From Ferrigenium kumadai (GTDB taxonomy: Bacteria; Pseudomonadota; Gammaproteobacteria; Burkholderiales; Gallionellaceae): a DNA stretch of 64,000 bases. The stretch covers positions 992,001 to 1,056,000 of the forward strand of contig NZ_AP019536.1 in the NCBI RefSeq assembly GCF_018324385.1, in the 5' to 3' direction. Position 1 is the stretch's first letter. Each line of letters begins with the position of its first letter. The notes beneath the pieces are model-generated. The model was not told where the DNA came from, searched no databases, and was given only the letters and a program-made list of their open reading frames with translations. Below, in pieces: positions 3,094-58,698 of this stretch. The position numbers and the translations under genes were made by a program.

Positions 3094-3947
3094 TACTTAC
3101 CTGCTGCGCGTTCCGCCGATTGCACGGTGTTGGCCACCAGCATGGTGATGGTCATGGGGCCGACGCCGCCGGGCACAGGGGTGATCCAGCCCGCGACTTC
3201 CTTGGCGGAATCGAAATCCACGTCGCCGCACAGCTTGCCGTCAGGAAGGCGGTTGATGCCGACGTCGATCACGGCCGCACCGGGCTTGATCATGTTGCCG
3301 GTGATCATCTTCGGCCTGCCTGTCGCCACCACCAGGATGTCGGCATCGCGAGTGAACTTGGCGAGGTCGACGGTCTTGGAGGTGCAGATGGTGACGGTGG
3401 CGTTGTGCTGCAACAGCAACAGCGCCATCGGCTTGCCGACGATGTTGCTGCGGCCTACCACCACGGCATGCTTGCCTTCGATGGAGATGCCGCTCTTCTG
3501 CAGCAGGACCAGCGAGCCGTAAGGCGTGCAGGGCGCGAAGCGCATGTTGCCCGTGGCCAGTGCGCCGACGTTGACCGGATGGAAGCCATCCACGTCCTTG
3601 TCCGGGCTGATGGCGTTCAATATCTTGTCGCTGTCGATGTGCTTGGGCACCGGCAGTTGCACCAGCAGGCCGTGGATCTTCGGGTCGGCATTCAGCTCGG
3701 CGATCTTTGCCAGCAGCGTCGCTTCGGAAGTGTCGGCGGGCAGGGCGATGTGCTCGGAGTGCAGGCCCAGCTCGGCGCAGGCCTTCACCTTGTTGGCGAC
3801 ATAGACCTTGGAAGCCGGGTCTTCGCCGACGATGATGACGGCCAGTCCCGGCGTGATGCCGCGCGCCTTGAGGGCGTCGGCGCGCACCTTCCATTCGGCG
3901 CGCACTTCCTGCGCGATCGCCTTGCCGTCAATGATGCGTGCGGTCAT
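3093..3947 (-). CDS. folD: methylenetetrahydrofolate dehydrogenase / cyclohydrolase
   Basis: Bifunctional one-carbon enzyme: NADP-dependent oxidation of 5,10-methylene-THF and hydrolysis to 10-formyl-THF. The 284-residue length is normal. Visible motifs are the catalytic Tyr49-x3-Lys53 pair, the folate-site segment around Asp120 (DKDVDGFHP), and the NADP-binding GRSNIVGKP at 165-173 with the signature PGGVGPMT near the C terminus. AAGGAG stands upstream of the ATG. It follows ppa at 17 bases and overlaps the thioesterase gene, so all three are likely one transcript. Confidence 0.96.
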
Positions 3948-3964
3948 CTTGATCTCCTTGCGAA

Positions 3965-4513
3965 TCAGAACTCGGGTTTGACTGCGGCGTTCTTGTAGTT
4001 GGCCACGCCGGACATGATCTCGGCGCGTGCCGATTCACCGTCTTCCCAGCCGCCGATCTTGACCCACTTGTTGGGTTCCAGGTCCTTGTAGTGGGCGAAG
4101 AAGTGTTCGATCTGCTTCAGCGAGATCTCGGGCAGGTCGGTATAGGTCTTCACGTTGCGATACATGGCGGTCAGCTTGTCCACCGGTACGGCCAGCAGCT
4201 TGGCATCCACGCCCGATTCGTCTTCCATCTTCAGCACGCCCAGCGGACGGCAGCGCACGACGCAGCCGACTTGCAGGGGGATGGGGGTGACGACCAGCAC
4301 GTCCACCGGGTCGCCGTCGTCGGACAGGGTATGCGGGATGTAGCCGTAGTTGCAGGGGTAGTGCATCGCGGTGCTCATGAAGCGGTCCACGAAGATCGCG
4401 CCGGAGTCCTTGTCCACTTCATATTTGACCGGCTCGCCGTGCATCGGGATCTCGATGATGACGTTGAAGTCGTTGGGAAGGTCTTTGCCGGAGGGAACCT
4501 TGTTCAAGCTCAT
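3965..4513 (-). CDS. ppa: soluble family I inorganic pyrophosphatase
   Basis: Hydrolyses cytosolic PPi to phosphate and so pulls biosynthetic reactions forward. At 182 residues it matches the bacterial hexameric type. Key residues are visible: Glu21, Lys30, Tyr56 in PCNYGYIP, the metal-binding DGDPVD at 66-71, and Asp103. Divergently oriented to the PPi-dependent phosphofructokinase with a 116-base gap. A soluble PPase next to two enzymes that conserve PPi energy is metabolically competing and so probably regulated. The regulator is not visible. Confidence 0.96.
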
Positions 4514-4629
4514 TTTGTTTCCTTGGATAGAAGGGGTTGAGAAAGGCGCAATTATAAGCGATGCGGGACAATGCTGCTAAACCGCATTAGGTTTAGAATG
4601 TGCCGACTACTTCCCAAGGAGATGATGCT

Positions 4630-5817
4630 ATGGCTACCAAATTGAGCGGAAAAATGGTCATTGGGCAATCGGGCGGGCCCACTGTCGTCATCAACCAGTC
4701 GCTGGTCGGGGCTGTGCTGGCGGCGCGCAAGCAGTCCAACATCACCGGTATCCTCGGCGCTCGCCATGGCATCGCGGGGATACTGAAGGAAGACTTCATC
4801 GATCTCACCACGCAAAGTGTGGAACAACTCGAACTGGTCGCCACGACTCCTGCGGCGGCATTGGGTTCGGTGCGGCTCAAGCCAGGCCAGGCCGAATGCG
4901 AGAAGGTGTTCGAAGTGTTCCGCAAGCACGACGTGCGCTACTTCTTCTACATCGGCGGCAACGACTCGGCCGAGACCGCTCACATCATCGCGGAGATGGC
5001 GAAACAGGCGAACTACGATTTCTGCACCGTCCACATCCCCAAGACCATCGACAACGACCTCAAGGTCACCGACCACTGTCCGGGCTACGCCTCGGCGGCG
5101 CGCTTTGTGGCGCTCGCCTTCATGGGCGACGACCGCGACAACCGCGCACTGGAAGGCATCAAGGTCAACGTGGTGATGGGGCGCAACGCCGGCTTCCTGA
5201 CGGCAGCCTCCGCGCTGGCGCGCCAAGAGGAGCGCGACGGCCCGCACCTGATCTACCTGCCGGAGCGTGTGTTCGACGTGGACAAGTTCAAGCAGGATGT
5301 CCGCGCTGTGGTGGCCAAATATGGGCGCTGCGTGGTGGCCGCCTCCGAAGGCATTTCCGACAAGGACGGCAATCCGATCTCGACCACCGGCGAGCGCGAT
5401 TCTCACGGCAACATCCAGCTTTCCGGCACGGGCGCGCTGGGCGACACCCTCGCGGCACTGGTGAAAGAAGCTTTCCCCGGGCAGAAGGTGCGCGTGCGCG
5501 CCGATACTTTTGGCTATCTGCAGCGTTCCTTTCCCACCATCGTCTCGGCGGTGGATGCGAAAGAGGCGCGCATGGTCGGCGACTATGCGGTGAACCATGC
5601 CGTTGCGACGGGAGAGCCGGGATCGGTTGCGATCCGCCGCCTGAGCAGCAAGCCGTACTCCAGCGAATGCTTCATCACGCCGCTGTCTTCCGTGGCGCGC
5701 GAGGCGACCGCGATGAAGGATGAATACATCAATGCGGCGGGCAACGATGTGACGCAAGCCTGGCTGGATTACGTCGCGCCGCTGGTCGGCGAATTGCCGA
5801 AAATGGGCAGGCTGTGA
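4630..5817 (+). CDS. pfp: pyrophosphate-dependent 6-phosphofructokinase
   Basis: Reversibly phosphorylates fructose 6-phosphate, here with PPi rather than ATP. Evidence for PPi use is the Asp in GGNDS (109-113), where ATP enzymes have Gly, and the Lys in PKTIDND (137-143), where ATP enzymes have Gly. MGRNAGFLTA at 183-192 belongs to the sugar-phosphate site. Length is 395 residues, in line with the single-domain PPi group. ATG 4630 is chosen over an upstream in-frame start at 4600 because AAGGAG lies at the right distance and the protein then begins at the family N terminus. Confidence 0.93.
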   Translation: MATKLSGKMVIGQSGGPTVVINQSLVGAVLAARKQSNITGILGARHGIAGILKEDFIDLTTQSVEQLELVATTPAAALGSVRLKPGQAECEKVFEVFRKHDVRYFFYIGGNDSAETAHIIAEMAKQANYDFCTVHIPKTIDNDLKVTDHCPGYASAARFVALAFMGDDRDNRALEGIKVNVVMGRNAGFLTAASALARQEERDGPHLIYLPERVFDVDKFKQDVRAVVAKYGRCVVAASEGISDKDGNPISTTGERDSHGNIQLSGTGALGDTLAALVKEAFPGQKVRVRADTFGYLQRSFPTIVSAVDAKEARMVGDYAVNHAVATGEPGSVAIRRLSSKPYSSECFITPLSSVAREATAMKDEYINAAGNDVTQAWLDYVAPLVGELPKMGRL

Positions 5818-9151: not shown

Positions 9152-9175
9152 CCGAAAAACTACTGGTGAAACAAC

Positions 9176-9223
9176 TAGCCATTCGACTAGGCCGTCAAAA
9201 AACAACGGCCAAGTCGCTGGTTA
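9176..9223 (+). repeat. 48-nt hairpin repeat, copy A
   Basis: Outer arms TAGCCA/TGGTTA, middle arms CGACT/AGTCG and tip GGCCGT/ACGGCC with an A-rich loop. It is one of five copies of a hairpin family in this window, placed 24 bases after the stop of the diiron protein gene. The rest of 9152-9293 is non-coding. Confidence 0.75.
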
Positions 9224-9293
9224 TGCAGTGGTCATCTGCGGCGTTGCGCGGTGCAGCTGACCATCCTCGCTACGTTTTTCAATAGCTGTTAGA

Positions 9294-13675: not shown

Positions 13676-15022
13676 ATGCCTACCGGTCTATTTTTTGAAG
13701 AAAAGAGTCGCGTCTTGCGCGTCGCGGAACTCACCAGTGCAATCAAGAAGTTGCTCGAATCCGAGGTGCCGCTGCTGTGGGTGAGGGGGGAGATCTCCAA
13801 TCTGGTGAAGGCGGCGTCCGGTCACTGGTATTTCGCGCTCAAGGACGACCAGGCGCAGGTGCGCTGCGTGATGTTCCGGCATAAGAATCAATTCCTGAGT
13901 GCGCCGGTTGCCAATGGTTCGCAGGTCGAGGTCCTGGCCGTCGCCACCCTGTACGAGCAGCGCGGCGATTTTCAGCTCACCGTCGAGCAGATGCGTCCGG
14001 CCGGACTGGGCGTGCTCTATGAGCGCTTTGCTCAACTCAAGCTGAAGCTGGAAGCCGAAGGCCTGTTCGATCCGGCGCGCAAACGTCCGTTGCCTCAATA
14101 TCCCAAACGTATCGGCATCGTCACTTCGCCGCAGGCCGCCGCGCTGCGCGATGTGCTGACCACTTTGCGCAGCCGCCTGCCCGGCGTGCCGGTAGTGCTG
14201 TACCCGACCGCGGTGCAGGGCACCGGCAGCGCGGAGCAGATCGCGGCTGCCGTCCGCACCGCGAACCAGCGCGCGGAATGCGACGTGCTCATTGTCTGCC
14301 GCGGCGGCGGCAGCATCGAAGACCTGTGGGCTTTTAACGAAGAGGTCGTGGCGCGCGCCATCGCCGCCAGCGACATTCCGGTCGTCAGTGGCGTCGGCCA
14401 CGAGACCGATTTCACCATCGCCGATTTCGTCGCCGACGAACGCGCGCCGACGCCGACCGCGGCGGCGCAGCGCGTCGTGCCGGACCGCCATGCCCTGATG
14501 CGCGGCTTGCGCGACATCGCGCAACACCTGAGGCGCGCGCAGCGCAACCGTCTGCAGAACGCGATGCAGACGGCGGACTATCTGCAGCGCCGCCTGGTGC
14601 ACCCCGCGCAACAGTTGCAACGCCAGACCCAGCAGCTGGATCAGCTGCACCAGCGCCTGCAGCGTGCCTACGCCTACCGCAGGCAACACCAGCACTGGCA
14701 GTGGCAATCCCTGGCGCAACGCCTGCAGGCAGCGAGCGGAGACTTCGTTCGCCTGCAGGACCGGCAGGCTAACCTCGCGCAGCGCCTGACCCGTGCGATG
14801 CACAACACACAGCAGCGACACGCTTCGCGACTGGAGAACATCGCGCAACACCTCGTCTACCTCGATCCGAAACAGGTTTTCGCTCGCGGCTACAGCATGG
14901 TTCAGGATGCAAATGGCCGCGTCGTGTCGGATGCGGCGACGCTGGCGGCTGGCGACGAGTTGAGGGTCACGTTCGCGAAGGGATGGGCGAAGGCCGAGGT
15001 GAAGGAGACGGGCGGAAAGTAG
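13676..15022 (+). CDS. xseA: exodeoxyribonuclease VII large subunit
   Basis: Large subunit of exonuclease VII, which degrades single-stranded DNA to oligonucleotides. The 448 residues comprise an N-terminal OB fold (about 15-110), the catalytic region (IVTSPQAAALRDVL, CRGGGSIEDLWAFN, GVGHETDFTIADF) and a long coiled-coil C-terminal arm rich in Gln and Arg (about 270-390). The first codon ATG 13676 gives MPTGLFFEEKSRVLRV. xseB is not adjacent. The gene is followed by a non-coding repeat tract. Confidence 0.95.
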   Translation: MPTGLFFEEKSRVLRVAELTSAIKKLLESEVPLLWVRGEISNLVKAASGHWYFALKDDQAQVRCVMFRHKNQFLSAPVANGSQVEVLAVATLYEQRGDFQLTVEQMRPAGLGVLYERFAQLKLKLEAEGLFDPARKRPLPQYPKRIGIVTSPQAAALRDVLTTLRSRLPGVPVVLYPTAVQGTGSAEQIAAAVRTANQRAECDVLIVCRGGGSIEDLWAFNEEVVARAIAASDIPVVSGVGHETDFTIADFVADERAPTPTAAAQRVVPDRHALMRGLRDIAQHLRRAQRNRLQNAMQTADYLQRRLVHPAQQLQRQTQQLDQLHQRLQRAYAYRRQHQHWQWQSLAQRLQAASGDFVRLQDRQANLAQRLTRAMHNTQQRHASRLENIAQHLVYLDPKQVFARGYSMVQDANGRVVSDAATLAAGDELRVTFAKGWAKAEVKETGGK

Positions 15023-15097: not shown

Positions 15098-15385
15098 CCC
15101 ATCAATCAAAACCGCCGGGGGGGAGCCCGACAGCTAGTCACTTTCTTTTGCGTCGCCAAAAGAAAGTAACCAAAGAAAAGGCGACCCCGGTTTGCCGCCC
15201 CTACGGGGGGCCCTCGATCAGACGCAAACGAGCGGGGCTGCGGAACTCGCGCTTCGCGCTCAGACATAACCAGCGACTTGGCTGGCGTCGCTTGCCAGCT
15301 TAGTCGAATGGCTAGTTGTTTCATCAGTCCTCGCCGACATCCCCTGACCAGCCTGTGCTACTCGGCGGCGCACAGGGGAAGAAAA
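15098..15385 (+). repeat. composite repeat, copy 1
   Basis: A non-coding block in three parts. First is a GC-rich hairpin near 15102-15130 followed by a perfect 11-bp stem (15140-15150 with 15157-15167). Then comes a linker with GGTTTGCCGCC and CTGCGGAACTCGC. Last are hairpin copy D and a CCCCTG...CAGGGG block (about 15326-15381). The same order recurs inverted at 18396-18725 and, without the central hairpin, at 57970-58206. Apparent reading frames through it (for example 15067-15303) look spurious. Confidence 0.75.
15267..15314 (-). repeat. 48-nt hairpin repeat, copy D
   Basis: Minus-strand copy inside composite copy 1. Read on the minus strand it has TAGCCA/TGGTTA, CGACT/AGTCG and a GCTGGC/GCCAGC tip. 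It matches copy C at 18460-18507 almost base for base, as expected of two arms of a larger inverted repeat. Confidence 0.75.
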
Positions 15386-15416
15386 ACGGAAATTCAAAGT
15401 CAAATACATCAACCAA

Positions 15417-15448
15417 AAACTGATGCCGCGCAAGCGCGGCATCAGTTC
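15417..15448 (-). terminator. rho-independent terminator
   Basis: Perfect 13-bp stem (15418-15430 with 15435-15447) around a CAAG loop. On the minus strand it is followed by TTTTTGGTTG, so it suits leftward transcripts, probably from the oxidoreductase gene at 15710-16714. The sequence from 15449 to 15709 shows no gene or clear signal. Confidence 0.75.
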
Positions 15449-15709
15449 TAAATCCACTCAAATCAGCCCCTCACCAAGATCAACAAACGACCCACGACTC
15501 AAATTGCTCTGCTAACGTCTGCTCATCGGCCTAAGCGGACCGAGCCAAAAATTATAGAGGCGGCTGCAATGCAACCAACAGCGGGCATTTGCTGCCACCT
15601 GGATATGATCACGCCCGACCTTGCCGCTCCACAACATTTTCTCAATGATTCTTGTAAAGAATTCCCGCCTTACCTGGACTTTCAGGATGCTCTCCAGACA
15701 AGGCCGTAC

Positions 15710-16714
15710 TCATCGAATCTTCACTACAACCTTGCCTTTGGCGCGCCCAGTTTCGACATAATCCAGAGCTTCCTGTGTCGCCTCGAACGGAAATACCCGA
15801 TCCACGACAGGACATATCGCACCGGAATCAATGAGCGCAGCGATCTGGCGCAACTGGCCGCCGCTTGCTTTCATAAAAAGAAATGAATAATCGATACCAC
15901 GGCGCTTGGCTTTTCTTCTGATGCCCGTGCTCAAAAGCCGCATGACTTGCTTCACAAACCAGGGGGCCTTGATTGCATCTGCGAACTCGGGAACGGGAGG
16001 GCCGGAAATGGAGATGAGTTTCCCGCCGGGCTTAAGCACACTCAGGGACTTCTCAAGTGTCTTGTTGTCCTGACTATTCAGAACCACATCGTAGCCAAGC
16101 AGGCTTTTTTCGAAATCATCCTTCTTGTAGTCGATTACGATATCGGCACCGAGGCGCTTTACCCAGTCCACATTGGCCGTGCTCGTCGTCGTCGCCACGA
16201 ACGCACCGAGATGTTTCGCCAACTGAATTGCAATTATCCCGACGCCGCCGGAGCCAGCCTGAATGAAAATCTTTTGCCCCTTCTTCAACTTTGCCGTTTC
16301 GATCAACGCCTGCCACGCGGTCAACCCGACCAGAGGGATGGAGGCCGCTTCTTCCATGGAGAGTGATTTAGGCTTGATCGCGAGCGAGTCTTCCTTGATC
16401 GCAATCAGTTCGGCGAATGCACCGATCCGGAAGTCGTCCGGCCGGGAATAGACCTCGTCGCCGGGCTTGAATTTCTTCACCCGCCCCCCGACGCGAACCA
16501 CAACTCCGGCCACGTCATGACCAAGGACGAGTGGAAAGCGATAGGGCAGGAGGAGTTTGAACTCGCCGCTTTTGATCTTGCCGTCCAACGGATTCACGCC
16601 AGCGGCATGCACCTGGACCAATACTTCGTTCTCGCCCAGTTCGGGTTCGGGCATGTCGCCAAGGCGCATGCGGCCTTTTTTTCCATAACGTTCCAGAATT
16701 ATTGCTTTCATCAT
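15710..16714 (-). CDS. zinc-type alcohol dehydrogenase-like / quinone oxidoreductase (MDR family)
   Basis: A 334-residue medium-chain dehydrogenase/reductase. It has the GroES-like half with AAGVNPLDGKIKSGE and LGHDVAGVV, and a Rossmann half with the NADP-binding QAGSGGVGIIAIQLAK. The zinc-binding Cys/His set of classical alcohol dehydrogenases is missing, which points to a zeta-crystallin/quinone reductase type. The substrate is unknown. Two ATG codons stand at 16714 and 16711. Same strand as the SDR gene, 58 bases downstream of it and probably co-controlled by the HxlR regulator. Confidence 0.85.
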   Translation of the reverse strand: MMKAIILERYGKKGRMRLGDMPEPELGENEVLVQVHAAGVNPLDGKIKSGEFKLLLPYRFPLVLGHDVAGVVVRVGGRVKKFKPGDEVYSRPDDFRIGAFAELIAIKEDSLAIKPKSLSMEEAASIPLVGLTAWQALIETAKLKKGQKIFIQAGSGGVGIIAIQLAKHLGAFVATTTSTANVDWVKRLGADIVIDYKKDDFEKSLLGYDVVLNSQDNKTLEKSLSVLKPGGKLISISGPPVPEFADAIKAPWFVKQVMRLLSTGIRRKAKRRGIDYSFLFMKASGGQLRQIAALIDSGAICPVVDRVFPFEATQEALDYVETGRAKGKVVVKIR

Positions 16715-16772
16715 GTTTGTTCTCTGCGAAATAGGGATGGGTGTGTCAGGTAGGACGGTTCATGCGTTGACA

Positions 16773-17615
16773 TCAACGACTGTGCGGCGCAGGGTTATCA
16801 TCGAGCCGCAGATCCTTGCGAAGTGCAGCGTCGACAATTCCGGCAGGTGCAAATCGGCGCAGGAATCGAAGCCTGCTGGCGAGCCCCTCGGGTGTGTAAC
16901 GGTGTTTCGGGTGGGCGGCGGTCGCGGCTTTCAGCACGGTGTCGGCAACGACACTGGGAGGCTGGGCATTTGCCATCACCTCCTGTATGCGTTTGTTCAC
17001 TGTGGCGCGGTTCGCGTGGTATTCATCGAGCTTGGCATCAGCTTCGAGCATGTTTGCATCGAACGGTGTCTTGGTGTAGGCCGGCTCGATAACCGAAACG
17101 CGGATGCCGCGCGTGCGCAGCTCGTGATCAAGCGATTCGGAATAGCCTGCGATTGCATGTTTGCTTGCCGCATAAAGCGCCCCGTATGGCATGGGCAAAA
17201 AACCAAGCACCGAGCCGATATTGAGAATACGACCACTCCCTTGTTGCCGCATGTAAGGCACAACGGCTCGGGTCAGGCGGAGGACACCGAAGAAGTTTGT
17301 CTCGAAGATCGACTTGGCCTGTTCGATCGAAACCTCTTCCGCTCCGGCTGGCGCAACGCCGAAACCGGCGTTGTTCACCAGCAAGTCGATACGGCCGGCA
17401 CGCCGCATGACTTCTTGAACGAGGGCTTCGACGGAGTCGTCGCTGTTTACATCCAGAGGAAGCATCTCGAACAGTCGCTGACCGGCCCCCGGGGCTGCCC
17501 TTCTGCTGGTGCCGAATACCCTGTAGCCAGCCTTGGCCAGACGCTCCGCTGTGGCTTCTCCGATGCCTGAAGATGCTCCTGTTATGAGGGCGACACGCTT
17601 ATTGTTATTGCTCAT
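16773..17615 (-). CDS. short-chain dehydrogenase/reductase
   Basis: A 280-residue classical SDR: TGASSGIG cofactor motif at 12-19, NNAG at 81-84, catalytic Ser135, Tyr148 and Lys152 (YAASK). Length and C-terminal region match oxidoreductases that act on small carbonyl compounds. The substrate is not evident. AAGGAGATT lies before the ATG. Divergent from the HxlR gene across a spacer carrying three direct repeats, so expression is likely controlled by that regulator. Confidence 0.9.
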   Translation of the reverse strand: MSNNNKRVALITGASSGIGEATAERLAKAGYRVFGTSRRAAPGAGQRLFEMLPLDVNSDDSVEALVQEVMRRAGRIDLLVNNAGFGVAPAGAEEVSIEQAKSIFETNFFGVLRLTRAVVPYMRQQGSGRILNIGSVLGFLPMPYGALYAASKHAIAGYSESLDHELRTRGIRVSVIEPAYTKTPFDANMLEADAKLDEYHANRATVNKRIQEVMANAQPPSVVADTVLKAATAAHPKHRYTPEGLASRLRFLRRFAPAGIVDAALRKDLRLDDNPAPHSR

Positions 17616-17658
17616 GACTTAAATCTCCTTGTGTGGTGGGTTGCTTCCTGTCAAACTG

Positions 17659-17715
17659 TTACTATCAATTCGAGAGTGATATTACTATCAATTTGAAACC
17701 GTGTCGCTATCAAAA
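17659..17715. promoter_or_regulatory. three spaced direct repeats, likely HxlR operator
   Basis: TTACTATCAATT occurs at 17659-17670 and again, identical, at 17682-17693. A third, degenerate copy (TCGCTATCAAAA) is at 17704-17715. Spacings are 23 and 22 bases, about two DNA turns. They lie between the divergent SDR and HxlR genes, the third abutting the HxlR start. Repeats on one helix face upstream of an HxlR gene are expected of its operator. Function is inferred from position. Confidence 0.6.
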
Positions 17716-17719
17716 TAGT

Positions 17720-18163
17720 ATGGACGATAAAAATACTTGCAATGACCCGTGCCCCATATCTCGCAGCTTGGCTTTTGCCGGCGACGCTTGGAGTCTGTTG
17801 ATACTGCGGGACGCACATGGCGGCCTAACGCGCTTTGATCAATTCCGGAAAAGCATTGGCATCGCCCCGACGATCCTGACCCGGCGGCTGGCTATGCTTA
17901 CTGAGGAGGGGTTGCTAGAGAAACGGCGCTACTCTGAGCACCCCCCGCGGGAGGAATATGTGTTGACCGCTGCCGGGCGCGACTTTCTGCCGGTGCTTTT
18001 CATGATTGGAGCGTGGGGACGCCAATATCGTGGCGGAGGTAAATTGGTGCGCTTTCTGGATGCTGAAACAGGGACAGAAATTAAAGCGGTGGCCGTGGAT
18101 GAAGTCACCGGGGCCAAGATCGGGACTCGTCCGATACGCATCGTCACCCCCGATGAAGACTGA
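17720..18163 (+). CDS. HxlR family winged-helix transcriptional regulator
   Basis: A 147-residue regulator with the HxlR fold: CPISRSLAFAGDAWSLLILRDAHGG, then FDQFRKSIGIAPTILTRRLAMLTEEGLLEKR with the recognition helix and wing. Cys7 and Cys11 near the N terminus are placed like the redox or aldehyde-sensing Cys of HxlR proteins such as HypR/YodB. ATG 17720 is preferred over the frame from 17633, which would run through the operator repeats. No strong ribosome site is seen. Divergent from the SDR and oxidoreductase genes, its likely targets. Confidence 0.9.
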   Translation: MDDKNTCNDPCPISRSLAFAGDAWSLLILRDAHGGLTRFDQFRKSIGIAPTILTRRLAMLTEEGLLEKRRYSEHPPREEYVLTAAGRDFLPVLFMIGAWGRQYRGGGKLVRFLDAETGTEIKAVAVDEVTGAKIGTRPIRIVTPDED

Positions 18164-18394
18164 AAGGTGATTTGACAGACAATTGCAGTGACCTGTCGTT
18201 GATTCCCTAGATGCGATGAACCCAAGGAAACGCTGCCCTATAAGCAGACTAAAAATCTGAGGGGGGCAGTTGTTATGGCAAGCTTGATGCGGCAGCTTTA
18301 TGTAAGCAAAGGGCCACTACTTCTTTGGATACTCAACGGCCGCTTTGGCCGATAACCGGCCACTCGGCGAACGGTTTTGTTTTTGACCTTTTCA
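18164..18394. other. non-coding stretch inside the bracketed cassette
   Basis: No reading frame or RNA gene is recognisable between the HxlR stop and composite repeat copy 2. It contains small inverted segments, for example around 18339-18364 (CGGCCGCTTTGGCCG). It may be degraded sequence left from insertion. Confidence 0.4.
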
Positions 18395-18459
18395 TCCCCT
18401 GTGCGCCGCCGAGTAGCGCAGGCTGGTCAGGGGATGTCGGCGAGGACTGATGAAACAAC

Positions 18460-18507
18460 TAGTCATTCGACTAAGCTGGCAAGCGACGCCAGCCAAGTCG
18501 CTGGTTA
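18460..18507 (+). repeat. 48-nt hairpin repeat, copy C
   Basis: Outer arms TAGTCA/TGGTTA (with G-U pairs), middle CGACT/AGTCG and tip GCTGGC/GCCAGC. It lies inside composite copy 2. Confidence 0.75.
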
Positions 18508-18574
18508 TGTTTGAGCGCGAAGCGCGAGTTCCGCAGCCGCCTGACCAGTCGACAACACGCCGCGTAGCGGCTTG

Positions 18575-18611
18575 TTGCGGCGGAGACTAACCTTCAGGTT
18601 ATGTCGTAGCC
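18575..18611 (+). repeat. 37-nt repeat shared with 51271-51307
   Basis: This segment, centred on the near-palindrome AACCTTCAGGTT, matches the reverse complement of 51271-51307 with two differences in 37 bases. Both copies are in non-coding DNA. Confidence 0.7.
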
Positions 18612-18794
18612 AACAACGCAGGGAACCGCGAAGCGGCGGCAAACCGGGGGCGCCTTCTTTCGGTTACCTTTCTTGGCAAGACAAGAAAGGTAACTTGCTG
18701 CCGGGCAACCCCTGGCGGTTTTGGTGTTGGGTATCGCGTGCGGTATCATGCCGCCCTTCGATTTAACTGCAGTCCGTAGCAAGGCTTTCTCTCC

Positions 18795-20741
18795 ATGACA
18801 TCCGACAACTTCCTCGATCTCCCTCCATTGTTGAGCGCGCGCGGCACGGTCACGCTGCCCGGCTCGAAGAGCATCTCCAACCGCGTGCTGCTGCTGGCGG
18901 CATTGTCCGCGGGGACGACCGAGGTGCGCGATGTGCTGCTGTCGGACGATACCGAGCGCATGCTGGACGGCTTGCGCAAGCTGGGCGTGGGCGTCGAGCA
19001 GGTGGAGTCGCATGTGTTCCGCGTGACGGGTTGCGGCGGCAATTTTCCGAATAAAGAAGCCGAGCTGTTCCTCGGCAACGCCGGTACGGCGTTCCGCCCG
19101 CTGACGGCAGCGCTGGCGCTGTCCGGCGGGCATTACACGCTGTCCGGCGTGGCACGCATGCACGAGCGGCCCATCGGCGACCTGGTGGATGCGCTGCGTG
19201 CGCTGGGCGCGAACATCGACTATCTGGACAATGAAGGCTTCCCGCCGCTGGAGATATTCCCAGCGACCTTGAGCGATGCGGCGCGCGTCAGCGTGCGCGG
19301 CGACGTGTCCAGCCAGTTCCTCACCGCGCTGCTGATGGCGCTGCCATTGCTGGATCGCGAGGTGACGGTGGAGGTGGCGGGCGAGCTGATCTCTAAACCT
19401 TATATAGAGATCACGCTGGCAATGATGAAGCGCTTCGGCGTCGAAGTTGCGCGCGATGGCTGGCGCAGCTTCACCGTTGCGGCGGGCAGTCGCTATGTTT
19501 CGCCCGGCACTGTCTATGTCGAGGGCGATGCCTCGTCGGCTTCGTATTTCCTCGCCGCGGGGGCGATCGGCGGCGGGCCGCTGCGCATCGAGGGTGTGGG
19601 CAGCGAGAGCATCCAGGGCGACGTCCGTTTCGCCGATGCGCTGGCGCTGATGGGCGCACAGATCACCATGGGGCCGAACTGGATGGAGGCGCGCGGGCCT
19701 GAGAGCGGAAAGCTCAAGGCCATCGACCTTGACTGCAACCACATTCCCGATGCGGCGATGACGCTGGCGGTGGCCGCGCTGTTCGCCGAGGGCACGACCA
19801 CGCTGCGTAACATCGCCAGCTGGCGCGTGAAGGAGACGGACCGCATCGCGGCGATGGCGACTGAACTGCGCAAGGTGGGCGCGACGATGGAGGAGGGCGC
19901 GGACTATATTCGTGTCACGCCGCCCGCGCACATCAGGCATGCGGCCATCGACACCTATGACGACCACCGCATGGCGATGTGCTTCTCGCTCGCGGCGTTC
20001 GGCACGGAAGGGATGTGCATCAACGATCCGGGTTGCGTCGCCAAGACCTTCCCCGAATACTTCTCCGCTTTCGCCGGCATGACGCAGGCTGTGCCGGTCA
20101 TCGCCATCGATGGCCCCTCCGCCTCGGGCAAGGGCACGGTGGCGCAACGCGTGGCGACTGCGCTGGGCATGCATTATCTCGACAGCGGCGCGCTGTATCG
20201 ACTCCTGGGCCTGGCGGCGCAGCGGCGCGGCGTCGCGCTGGATGCGGAAGCGCAACTGGCCAAGCTGGCCGGGCAGATCGATATCCGCTTCGAGGGGGAG
20301 GACATCTGGCTGGACGGCGTGAAGGTGGGCGACGAGTTGCGCACCGAAGAGGCGGGCTCTGCGGCCTCGAAGGTCGCCGCCCTGCACCAGGTGCGCGCGG
20401 CCCTGCTGGCCAAGCAGCGGGCCTTCCGCCGCGCGCCGGGGCTGGTGGCGGACGGGCGCGATATGGCGTCCGTGGTGTTCCCGGACTCGGTGCTGAAGAT
20501 ATTCCTGACCGCCAGCGCCGAGGCGCGCGCCGAGCGCCGCTATAAGCAGTTGAAGGAAAAAGGAATGAGTGCTAATATCGCCGCCCTTTTGCAGGATATC
20601 CGGGCGCGCGACGAGCGAGACACTCAACGTAGCGCAGCTCCGCTGCAACAGGCGCCGGGTGCGAGCCTGCTGGACACCACTGCTCTGAACATCGAGCAGG
20701 CGGTTGCCGAAGTGCTGGCGCGCTACCGGGCGAAGAAATAG
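18795..20741 (+). CDS. aroA-cmk: fused EPSP synthase / cytidylate kinase
   Basis: One 648-residue protein. Residues 1-428 are 5-enolpyruvylshikimate-3-phosphate synthase ([10 protein letters not shown] near 20, [23 protein letters not shown]), the sixth step of the shikimate route. From Met429 (20079) it is cytidylate kinase with [22 protein letters not shown] and [11 protein letters not shown]. There is no stop between the parts. The fusion is known in several betaproteobacteria, which often place cmk just before rpsA, as here. Met429 may act as an internal start, but no good binding site precedes it. Confidence 0.95.
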
Positions 20742-26156: not shown

Positions 26157-26182
26157 GGTGCATCGGGCGCGATGGCTCTGCA

Positions 26183-26230
26183 TAGCCATTCCACTAATCC
26201 ATCAAAAAACGATGGATAAGTGGCTGGTTA
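26183..26230 (+). repeat. 48-nt hairpin repeat, copy B
   Basis: Outer arms TAGCCA/TGGTTA, middle arms CCACT/AGTGG and tip ATCCATC/GATGGAT. Relative to the other copies both members of one middle pair are changed, keeping the stem. It lies between hldE1 and hldD. Confidence 0.75.
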
Positions 26231-26266
26231 ATCGCGCTTCTACGGTTGAATTTTAGAGGGGATGTC

Positions 26267-57920: not shown

Positions 57921-57969
57921 GTAGCTTTTCCCCGTTCGTGGTGAGGTATCGAACCATGAACGGCAACAT

Positions 57970-58206
57970 CAAAAAAACAAACCGTCGGGGGTAGCCCGAC
58001 AGCTAGTCACTTTCTTTTGCGTCGCCAAAAGAAAGTAACCAAAGAAAAGGCGCCCCCGGTTTGCCGCCGCTACGCGGTTCCCTGCGTTGCTCGACTGGTC
58101 AGGCGGCTGCGGAACTCGCACGATCCGCTACGCGGCCACGTGCTCAAACAGTCCTCGCCGACATCCCCTGGCCAGCCTGTGCTACTCAGCGGCGCACAGG
58201 GGAAGA
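57970..58206 (+). repeat. composite repeat, copy 3
   Basis: Third copy, in the same orientation as copy 1. It has a CGTCGGG/CCCGAC hairpin, the perfect 11-bp stem (58009-58019 with 58026-58036), the GGTTTGCCGCC linker, CTGCGGAACTCGC, and the CCCCTG...CAGGGG block to about 58204. The central 48-nt hairpin is absent. Frames read through it (for example 58017-58271) appear to be spurious. Confidence 0.75.
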
Positions 58207-58221
58207 AATTCAAAAACAAAA

Positions 58222-58254
58222 AGAAAAACCCATCAAAAAATGATGGGTTTTTCT
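58222..58254. terminator. bidirectional terminator
   Basis: A 13-14-bp stem (58222-58234 with 58241-58254) around an A6 loop, T-rich on the right and A-rich on the left. It serves the convergent zinc-ribbon gene and anything reading past acpS. Confidence 0.85.
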
Positions 58255-58278
58255 TTAATCAATTCTCCTAATACAGGC

Positions 58279-58698
58279 TTAGACGGCGTGGTGATATGTA
58301 GTCCCGCACTTGTGGCATAGCCATGAGTCTAGCCACTGTTGATAAAGAGAAGGCCACTCCTTCGAATTAAACTGAAAATTTTTGTATCCGAGATAGGCAC
58401 CTGCAGCAATTAATAAGAATCCCAAAAAGGCTGTTGCTCCTTGCCCACCGAGCATTAGTATGCCAATAACGAACAGAATCACTGCGGCCTTGAAACTCTT
58501 TTTTGATGGAGGGGCTGATTTCTGAGCTAGGATGGATTGGGATTGTCCCTTGGTTTTTGTTACCGCGCCACCTATACCAAAAGCACCACCGTGCGCACCA
58601 CCGACTGTAGTTCCAGTAGTGTTTATCTCTTGGGTGCCACCGTGAAAAACAACTTCCAACCTTTGTGTGTTTTCAGAGTTACATTTTGGGCACTGCAT
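58279..58698 (-). CDS. zinc-ribbon membrane protein, unknown function
   Basis: A 139-residue protein. Cys3/Cys6 (CPKC) and Cys128/Cys131 (CHKC) could form one zinc ribbon joining both ends. The middle has a Gly-rich stretch (31-45) and two membrane helices (about 70-84 and 88-104). AAAGGGAGAAACG precedes the ATG. The DNA is visibly more AT-rich than nearby genes and lies between a composite repeat and nagZ, so it may be acquired. The spacer 58699-58894 shows no gene; TATAAT at 58854-58859 may be the nagZ -10 box. Confidence 0.65.
   Translation of the reverse strand: MQCPKCNSENTQRLEVVFHGGTQEINTTGTTVGGAHGGAFGIGGAVTKTKGQSQSILAQKSAPPSKKSFKAAVILFVIGILMLGGQGATAFLGFLLIAAGAYLGYKNFQFNSKEWPSLYQQWLDSWLCHKCGTTYHHAV

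Follow-up and report, generated by a model that had tools for sequence, protein, structure and literature searches.

A family of facing hairpin-mosaic repeats with varied accessory genes between them in Gallionellaceae

The genome of Ferrigenium kumadai An22 (Gallionellaceae; complete, one contig) carries, in the 64,000-nt stretch analysed here (NZ_AP019536.1, positions 992,001 to 1,056,000; hereafter the window), a pair of facing composite repeats, or arms, that enclose three accessory genes between the core genes xseA and aroA-cmk. We find that this pair belongs to something larger than a single locus, namely a family of cassettes in the Gallionellaceae. Arm pairs recur at orthologous sites with different cargo or none, and we consider it very probable that they are fixed docking sites at which accessory genes turn over. 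On balance we also lean towards a fuller reading, in which cargo would be captured, exchanged, inverted and lost through recombination at the arms and would not travel as a hopping unit. The literature searched, in which subscription journals are mostly uncovered, holds no earlier description of the repeat or of inverted-repeat defence cassettes.

Facing arms and their recurring sites

Each arm is a hairpin mosaic of 250-350 nt. Its outer module was used to locate cassettes in a sample of one genome per species, many of them drafts with contigs ending in arms. The module is present in 15 of the 25 genomes made up of F. kumadai and 24 relatives, in 90 of 120 sampled genomes of the family and, at the level of the order, in 71 of 250 genomes and 38 of 120 genera. 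The order-level scan scored the top three copies per genome and returned several apparent convergent pairs spaced by ~0.5 kb outside the family. In an unbiased scan, 21 of 22 neighbouring copies less than 5 kb apart were convergent (P=4e-12); the count is confined to these 22, as the stretches retrieved later were picked partly for holding a pair. In all, the retrieved Gallionellaceae stretches yielded 44 convergent pairs, besides 19 arms that stand alone. Thirty-seven pairs are filled, in most cases by a single gene, with cargo of 0.4-3.6 kb; seven are empty, with an inner 50-180 nt. Two facing arms form a near-palindrome of ~0.55 kb, which we observed empty in the Gallionellaceae and which probably also occurs in other families of the order.

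The pairs occupy recurring positions. In 48 locus pairs the two loci share an orthologous flank gene, and nine groups take in 36 of 47 sites, with gene names read from the flank sequences; the largest group appears to merge mutT and aroC sites. The recurring sites are xseA/tyrA-aroA, mutT, aroC, sucB-acuI, cobT and hemH, and from genome to genome they hold different cargo, none, or a scar consisting of the terminal hairpin. On the aroC side the arm pair is empty in all four cases (L089, L108, L111, L204), and the hemH site carries a cassette in G012 and the scar hairpin only in G113. The best match of an arm in another genome falls at the orthologous site for 12 of 50 arms, against 3.2 expected.

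For 14 of 88 arms the best match is the partner arm, against ~1 expected, which suggests homogenisation within pairs. The idea that the arms are twin copies of one sequence was rejected as the general case on the same count. In L105, one unusual insertion is shared by the second hairpins of both arms (3926-4075 and 4591-4740), which points to homogenisation within this pair.

The aroA site in the window and in relatives

A first-pass annotation of the window had described two composite repeats in opposite orientation and with the same module order, bracketing exactly three genes between core flanks. This description holds throughout, with the limits of the repeats now extended and with one addition, a stretch of ~70 nt in the right arm (about 18540-18620) where the left arm has a different short stretch. 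The locus contains the following features.

13676-15022, plus strand: xseA, core neighbour on the left
15098-15400, plus strand: left composite arm, outer end leftmost (repeat match and BLAST against the repeat units)
15111-15132, plus strand: left-arm terminal hairpin (GCCGGG...CCCG[G/A]C type), which is what persists in the scars of G111, G080 and G113
15137-15170, plus strand: second hairpin of the left arm, GTCACTTTCTTTTGC/GCCAAAAGAAAGTAAC, with compensatory stem changes over 42 copies
15265-15328, plus strand: 64-nt palindromic module of the left arm (repeat search)
15699-18178, no strand: cargo block
15710-16714, minus strand: MDR-type (zinc-binding-dehydrogenase family) oxidoreductase (ADH), 334 aa, PF08240/PF13602
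16773-17615, minus strand: short-chain dehydrogenase (SDR), 280 aa, PF00106
17720-18163, plus strand: HxlR-type regulator, PF01638, divergent from SDR-ADH, with a possible alternative GTG start at 17633
18370-18729, minus strand: right composite arm, outer end facing aroA, outer flank GTTGGGTATCGC
18446-18509, minus strand: 64-nt palindromic module of the right arm (repeat search)
18795-20741, plus strand: aroA-cmk fusion, core neighbour on the right

From its outer end, the left arm consists of an A-rich tip, the terminal hairpin, the second hairpin, a GC-rich stretch, the 64-nt module and an inner CAGGGGAA-type end. The repeat search in the window returned an inverted match of 163 nt between the arms (15236-15398 and 18376-18538, 94% complementary) and a further outer one of 55 nt (15160-15214 and 18620-18674, 76%). 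Overall, the arms are 97% alike over the inner ~150 nt and 77% over the outer ~110 nt. Because 34 places in the F. kumadai genome match pieces of the arm unit, the window repeats are not a product of chance. No Rfam family was found at the window arms at the gathering score, and by E-value the only matches in L103 and L106 were spurious ones of miRNA type, all outside the arms. The window holds more copies of the 64-nt module, at 9162-9225 and, weaker, at 26169-26232; identity to the former is 83% for the copy at 18446-18509 and 64% for that at 26169-26232.

Comparison of the xseA-aroA interval across relatives identifies the ADH-SDR-HxlR trio as an accessory insert; none of the retrieved relatives has it at the aroA site. 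Among named organisms, Candidatus Ferrigenium altingense has the closest aroA-cmk (proteins 86% identical). Across relatives the xseA/tyrA-aroA site forms a series from empty through scar and one arm to both arms. The gap measures 82 bp in L013 (L137 is seemingly the same contig) and 118 bp in L138/G062, and in L133/G080 and L155/G111 the interval consists of one hairpin that bears arm tips. L146 and L147 have the right arm plus different cargo. Both arms are present in L009, around an AAA-type NTPase of 523 aa, and in L136, around two other genes. Elsewhere the gene upstream of aroA is not xseA: it is tyrA-like, as named from sequence, in L049, L145 and L168, and L132 falls in this group too. 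L132 and L049 have both arms before aroA; L145 and L168 have the right arm there. The outer flank of the right arm, GTTGGGTATCGC, is common to the window, L009, L132 and L136, and therefore the arm stayed in place while the cargo changed. In L130, L131, L134 and L135 the interval is filled by unrelated DNA, with arms undetected. In L134 (G113) this DNA includes a Y1 transposase gene of the REP type, lying upstream of aroA at a distance of 1.06-0.31 kb.

Arm structure, scars and cargo

Alignment of 42 outer modules revealed two hairpins that have changed by compensation. Both sides are altered in 9 of 19 stem pairs, and covariation reaches 0.205, compared with 0.105+-0.007 after shuffling. Read outwards, the outer tip runs from a hairpin into a T-rich stretch, so that by sequence the outer ends look like outward-reading intrinsic terminators. 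The terminal hairpin is almost self-complementary; both arms therefore carry it in the same reading, and deletion between the copies leaves one hairpin. Such a one-hairpin scar was seen three times: G111 and G080 carry it at the aroA site, G113 at the hemH site. A pattern search with exact ends retrieved one site only, and the two aroA-site scars deviate by one base or one lost tip. REP-like (repetitive extragenic palindromic) motifs adjoin the arms, which on the outside are also often bordered by other short palindromes, GTTCGCCCTGAGCTTGTCGAAGG and GGGTTGAGCGCAGCGATACCC among them.

The cargo is mostly a single gene, often AT-richer than the host, and differs from cassette to cassette almost every time: in an all-against-all comparison, one orthologous Mrr pair and one pair at 28% were the only related cargoes. 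A sample of the cargo was scanned with PADLOC profiles. At a cut-off of 1e-4, matches were enriched in the cassettes (12 of 23) over the flanking genes (3 of 20, these being MutT-, WYL- and PolA-like; Fisher P=0.012). These are profile matches, and the functions are predicted. Matches among the cargo include AbiJ_NTD4 (L096), Abi_alpha (L099), Mrr (L101), an OLD/AAA-type ATPase (L100), RT-Toprim (L110), a metallophosphatase with STAND (L118), SIR2 (L190), TIR-type effectors (L098, L195) and T5orf172 (L104). The window trio is not defence-like in appearance. No transposase was noted among the cargo examined, which covers part of the family's cassettes.

Two cargoes also occur free of arms. The trio has a counterpart in G058, from another genus of the family, with 90.6% DNA identity over 2480 bp; the 9-kb contig that carries it is free of arms. 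In G010 (L110, 4206-5965) the RT-Toprim cargo, a defence-type gene, is split in two frames, and its homologue in G089 is intact (586 aa) and arm-free; DNA similarity between the two starts just inside one arm and stops ~130 bp before the other. Of four cargo proteins searched, one turned up at the orthologous site together with an arm, two elsewhere without arms, and one only as a 48% relative, arms undetected. At the cobT-type site, the Mrr cassettes of G008 and G038, which belong to two genera, document an inversion: the flank and the right arm align forward and the cargo is reversed, with DNA identities of 85.7% for the cargo and 72.6% for the flank.

Recombination at the arms and its alternatives

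We propose a model in which foreign genes end up between the two facing arms of a fixed docking site. Since the arms are dispersed and similar, incoming arm-bracketed DNA could pair with a resident site, and homologous recombination would then swap the cargo. Within a pair, recombination of one arm with the other would invert the cargo, and deletion between the terminal hairpins would remove it and leave the one-hairpin scar. The outer hairpins and T-rich tails may insulate the cargo, and anti-phage selection would drive its turnover. It is tempting to speculate that the first cargo enters at the unstable centre of the empty palindrome. Exchange, inversion and loss at the arms are consistent with the anatomy of the cassettes without a dedicated enzyme, and we infer that exchange proceeds by recombination between arms rather than through such an enzyme. 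Whether arm-to-arm recombination is the engine of turnover we regard as evenly balanced.

Several points weigh against this model. The genomes compared include no close strain pair that would catch an exchange, and inversion is represented by a single case. Exchange between loci predicts the same cargo between arms at two different loci, and this was not found. The outer halves differ within many pairs, so the arms are not simple duplicates. The scars could come from ordinary slippage and are silent on how cargo arrives, and the link between arm and locus is above chance by count yet weak.

The first-pass annotation had left open whether the cassette was moved or trapped by its repeats. Movement would make it a non-autonomous composite transposon, akin to mobile insertion cassettes or TIME-COMP elements, in which arms resembling miniature inverted-repeat transposable elements and their cargo are moved together by a transposase acting in trans. 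The defined outer ends, the inverted arms and the transposase-free cargo would suit such a unit, and units of this kind are known (PMC4133298; see also PMC3913671). However, target-site duplication, which the annotation had proposed to look for at the outer edges, was not detected in any of 34 cassettes, where the longest common flank word did not exceed that in permuted flanks. Moreover, the cassettes remain at orthologous sites with varying cargo, two cargoes occur arm-free, and the plasmid and phage collections searched contain no arm copy. We therefore consider a composite transposon unlikely. 'Trapped' fits better than 'moved', because the trio is arm-free in another genus, target-site duplications are lacking and pairs stay at orthologous sites as the cargo changes; movement of the trio by the repeats as a transposing unit is not supported. 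The annotation had also proposed to look for such repeat pairs around other accessory genes, and they do surround such genes at many loci.

Passive decoration appears improbable as well. Here the arms would be terminators or insulators that gather at the borders of acquired genes in hotspots and play no role in acquisition, with exchange through the core flanks as in a plain minimal-mobile-element hotspot. The terminator-like outer ends agree with this, as does the unrelated DNA in the four armless xseA-aroA intervals, but the empty convergent pairs, the strict orientation, the breakpoints of the cargo inversion at the arms and the arm tips kept in scars do not. Spread of the arms as REP-like hairpins by a Y1 (RAYT) transposase would account for the compensated hairpin mosaics and the adjoining REP-like motifs, in a family where RAYTs are common and given that classic rayt genes sit between inverted REPs (PMC2817692), yet it is very unlikely, as the complete F. 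kumadai genome has no Y1_Tnp (PF01797), arms and RAYT are unassociated over 120 genomes (70 with both, 20 with arms alone, 21 with RAYT alone and 9 without either; P=0.46), and several genomes of genus g18 are rich in RAYT genes yet lack the outer module. The missing duplications, the absence of an own Y1 transposase and the lack of association between RAYT and arms together argue against the obvious movers.

The cassettes resemble several known systems and differ from each of them. Integron gene cassettes bring single-gene, ORFan- and defence-rich cargo to recombination sites with a conserved hairpin structure. The cassettes described here share this type of cargo and hairpin-structured sites, but each gene lies between two inverted arms, and the fixed sites are scattered; we saw no array or attC/attI layout, and no search for an integrase was made. 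Minimal mobile elements are not known to have boundaries other than their core-gene flanks. Those of Neisseria place varied accessory genes in one core-gene slot, with homologous recombination credited in the account of PMC2784325 (citing Snyder et al. 2007). The xseA/tyrA-aroA site and further groups likewise hold different accessory genes in one slot, whereas the slots here are bounded by a dispersed inverted-repeat pair, occur empty as well, and allow both inversion and scar formation. Like them, mobile insertion cassettes and TIME-COMP elements (PMC4133298; PMC3913671) carry transposase-free cargo between inverted elements; in contrast, our cassettes lack target-site duplications, keep fixed orthologous sites, have cargo that is also found arm-free, and possess arms of 250-350 nt of hairpins instead of short transposase ends. 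With REP/BIME and RAYT (PMC2817692) they share intergenic hairpin mosaics, conserved stems and inverted pairs around a gene, and they differ in having no obligate RAYT, a far longer arm unit and unrelated cargo between the arms.

If correct, our model would account for the gathering and exchange of single-gene defence and other accessory genes at many scattered fixed sites by an element without integrase or transposase. It would also provide a simple repeat signature for harvesting candidate anti-phage genes: about half of the tested cassettes contain a gene similar to known or candidate entries in defence catalogues, and a large share of the others lacks any family match. More tentatively, the arms may constitute a dedicated, possibly order-wide docking system of Burkholderiales-type bacteria in which pairs of them at fixed chromosomal positions capture, swap, flip and eject single, mostly anti-phage genes by a recombination process that acts on the arms and their terminal hairpins, with no transposase in the element.

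A third arm of the family lies in the window between acpS and nagZ.

57965-58221, plus strand: solo arm

Beside it, a small accessory gene (58279-58698, minus strand) encodes a zinc-ribbon-like membrane protein of 139 aa, and the interval 57965-58698 is probably a cassette minus its second arm.

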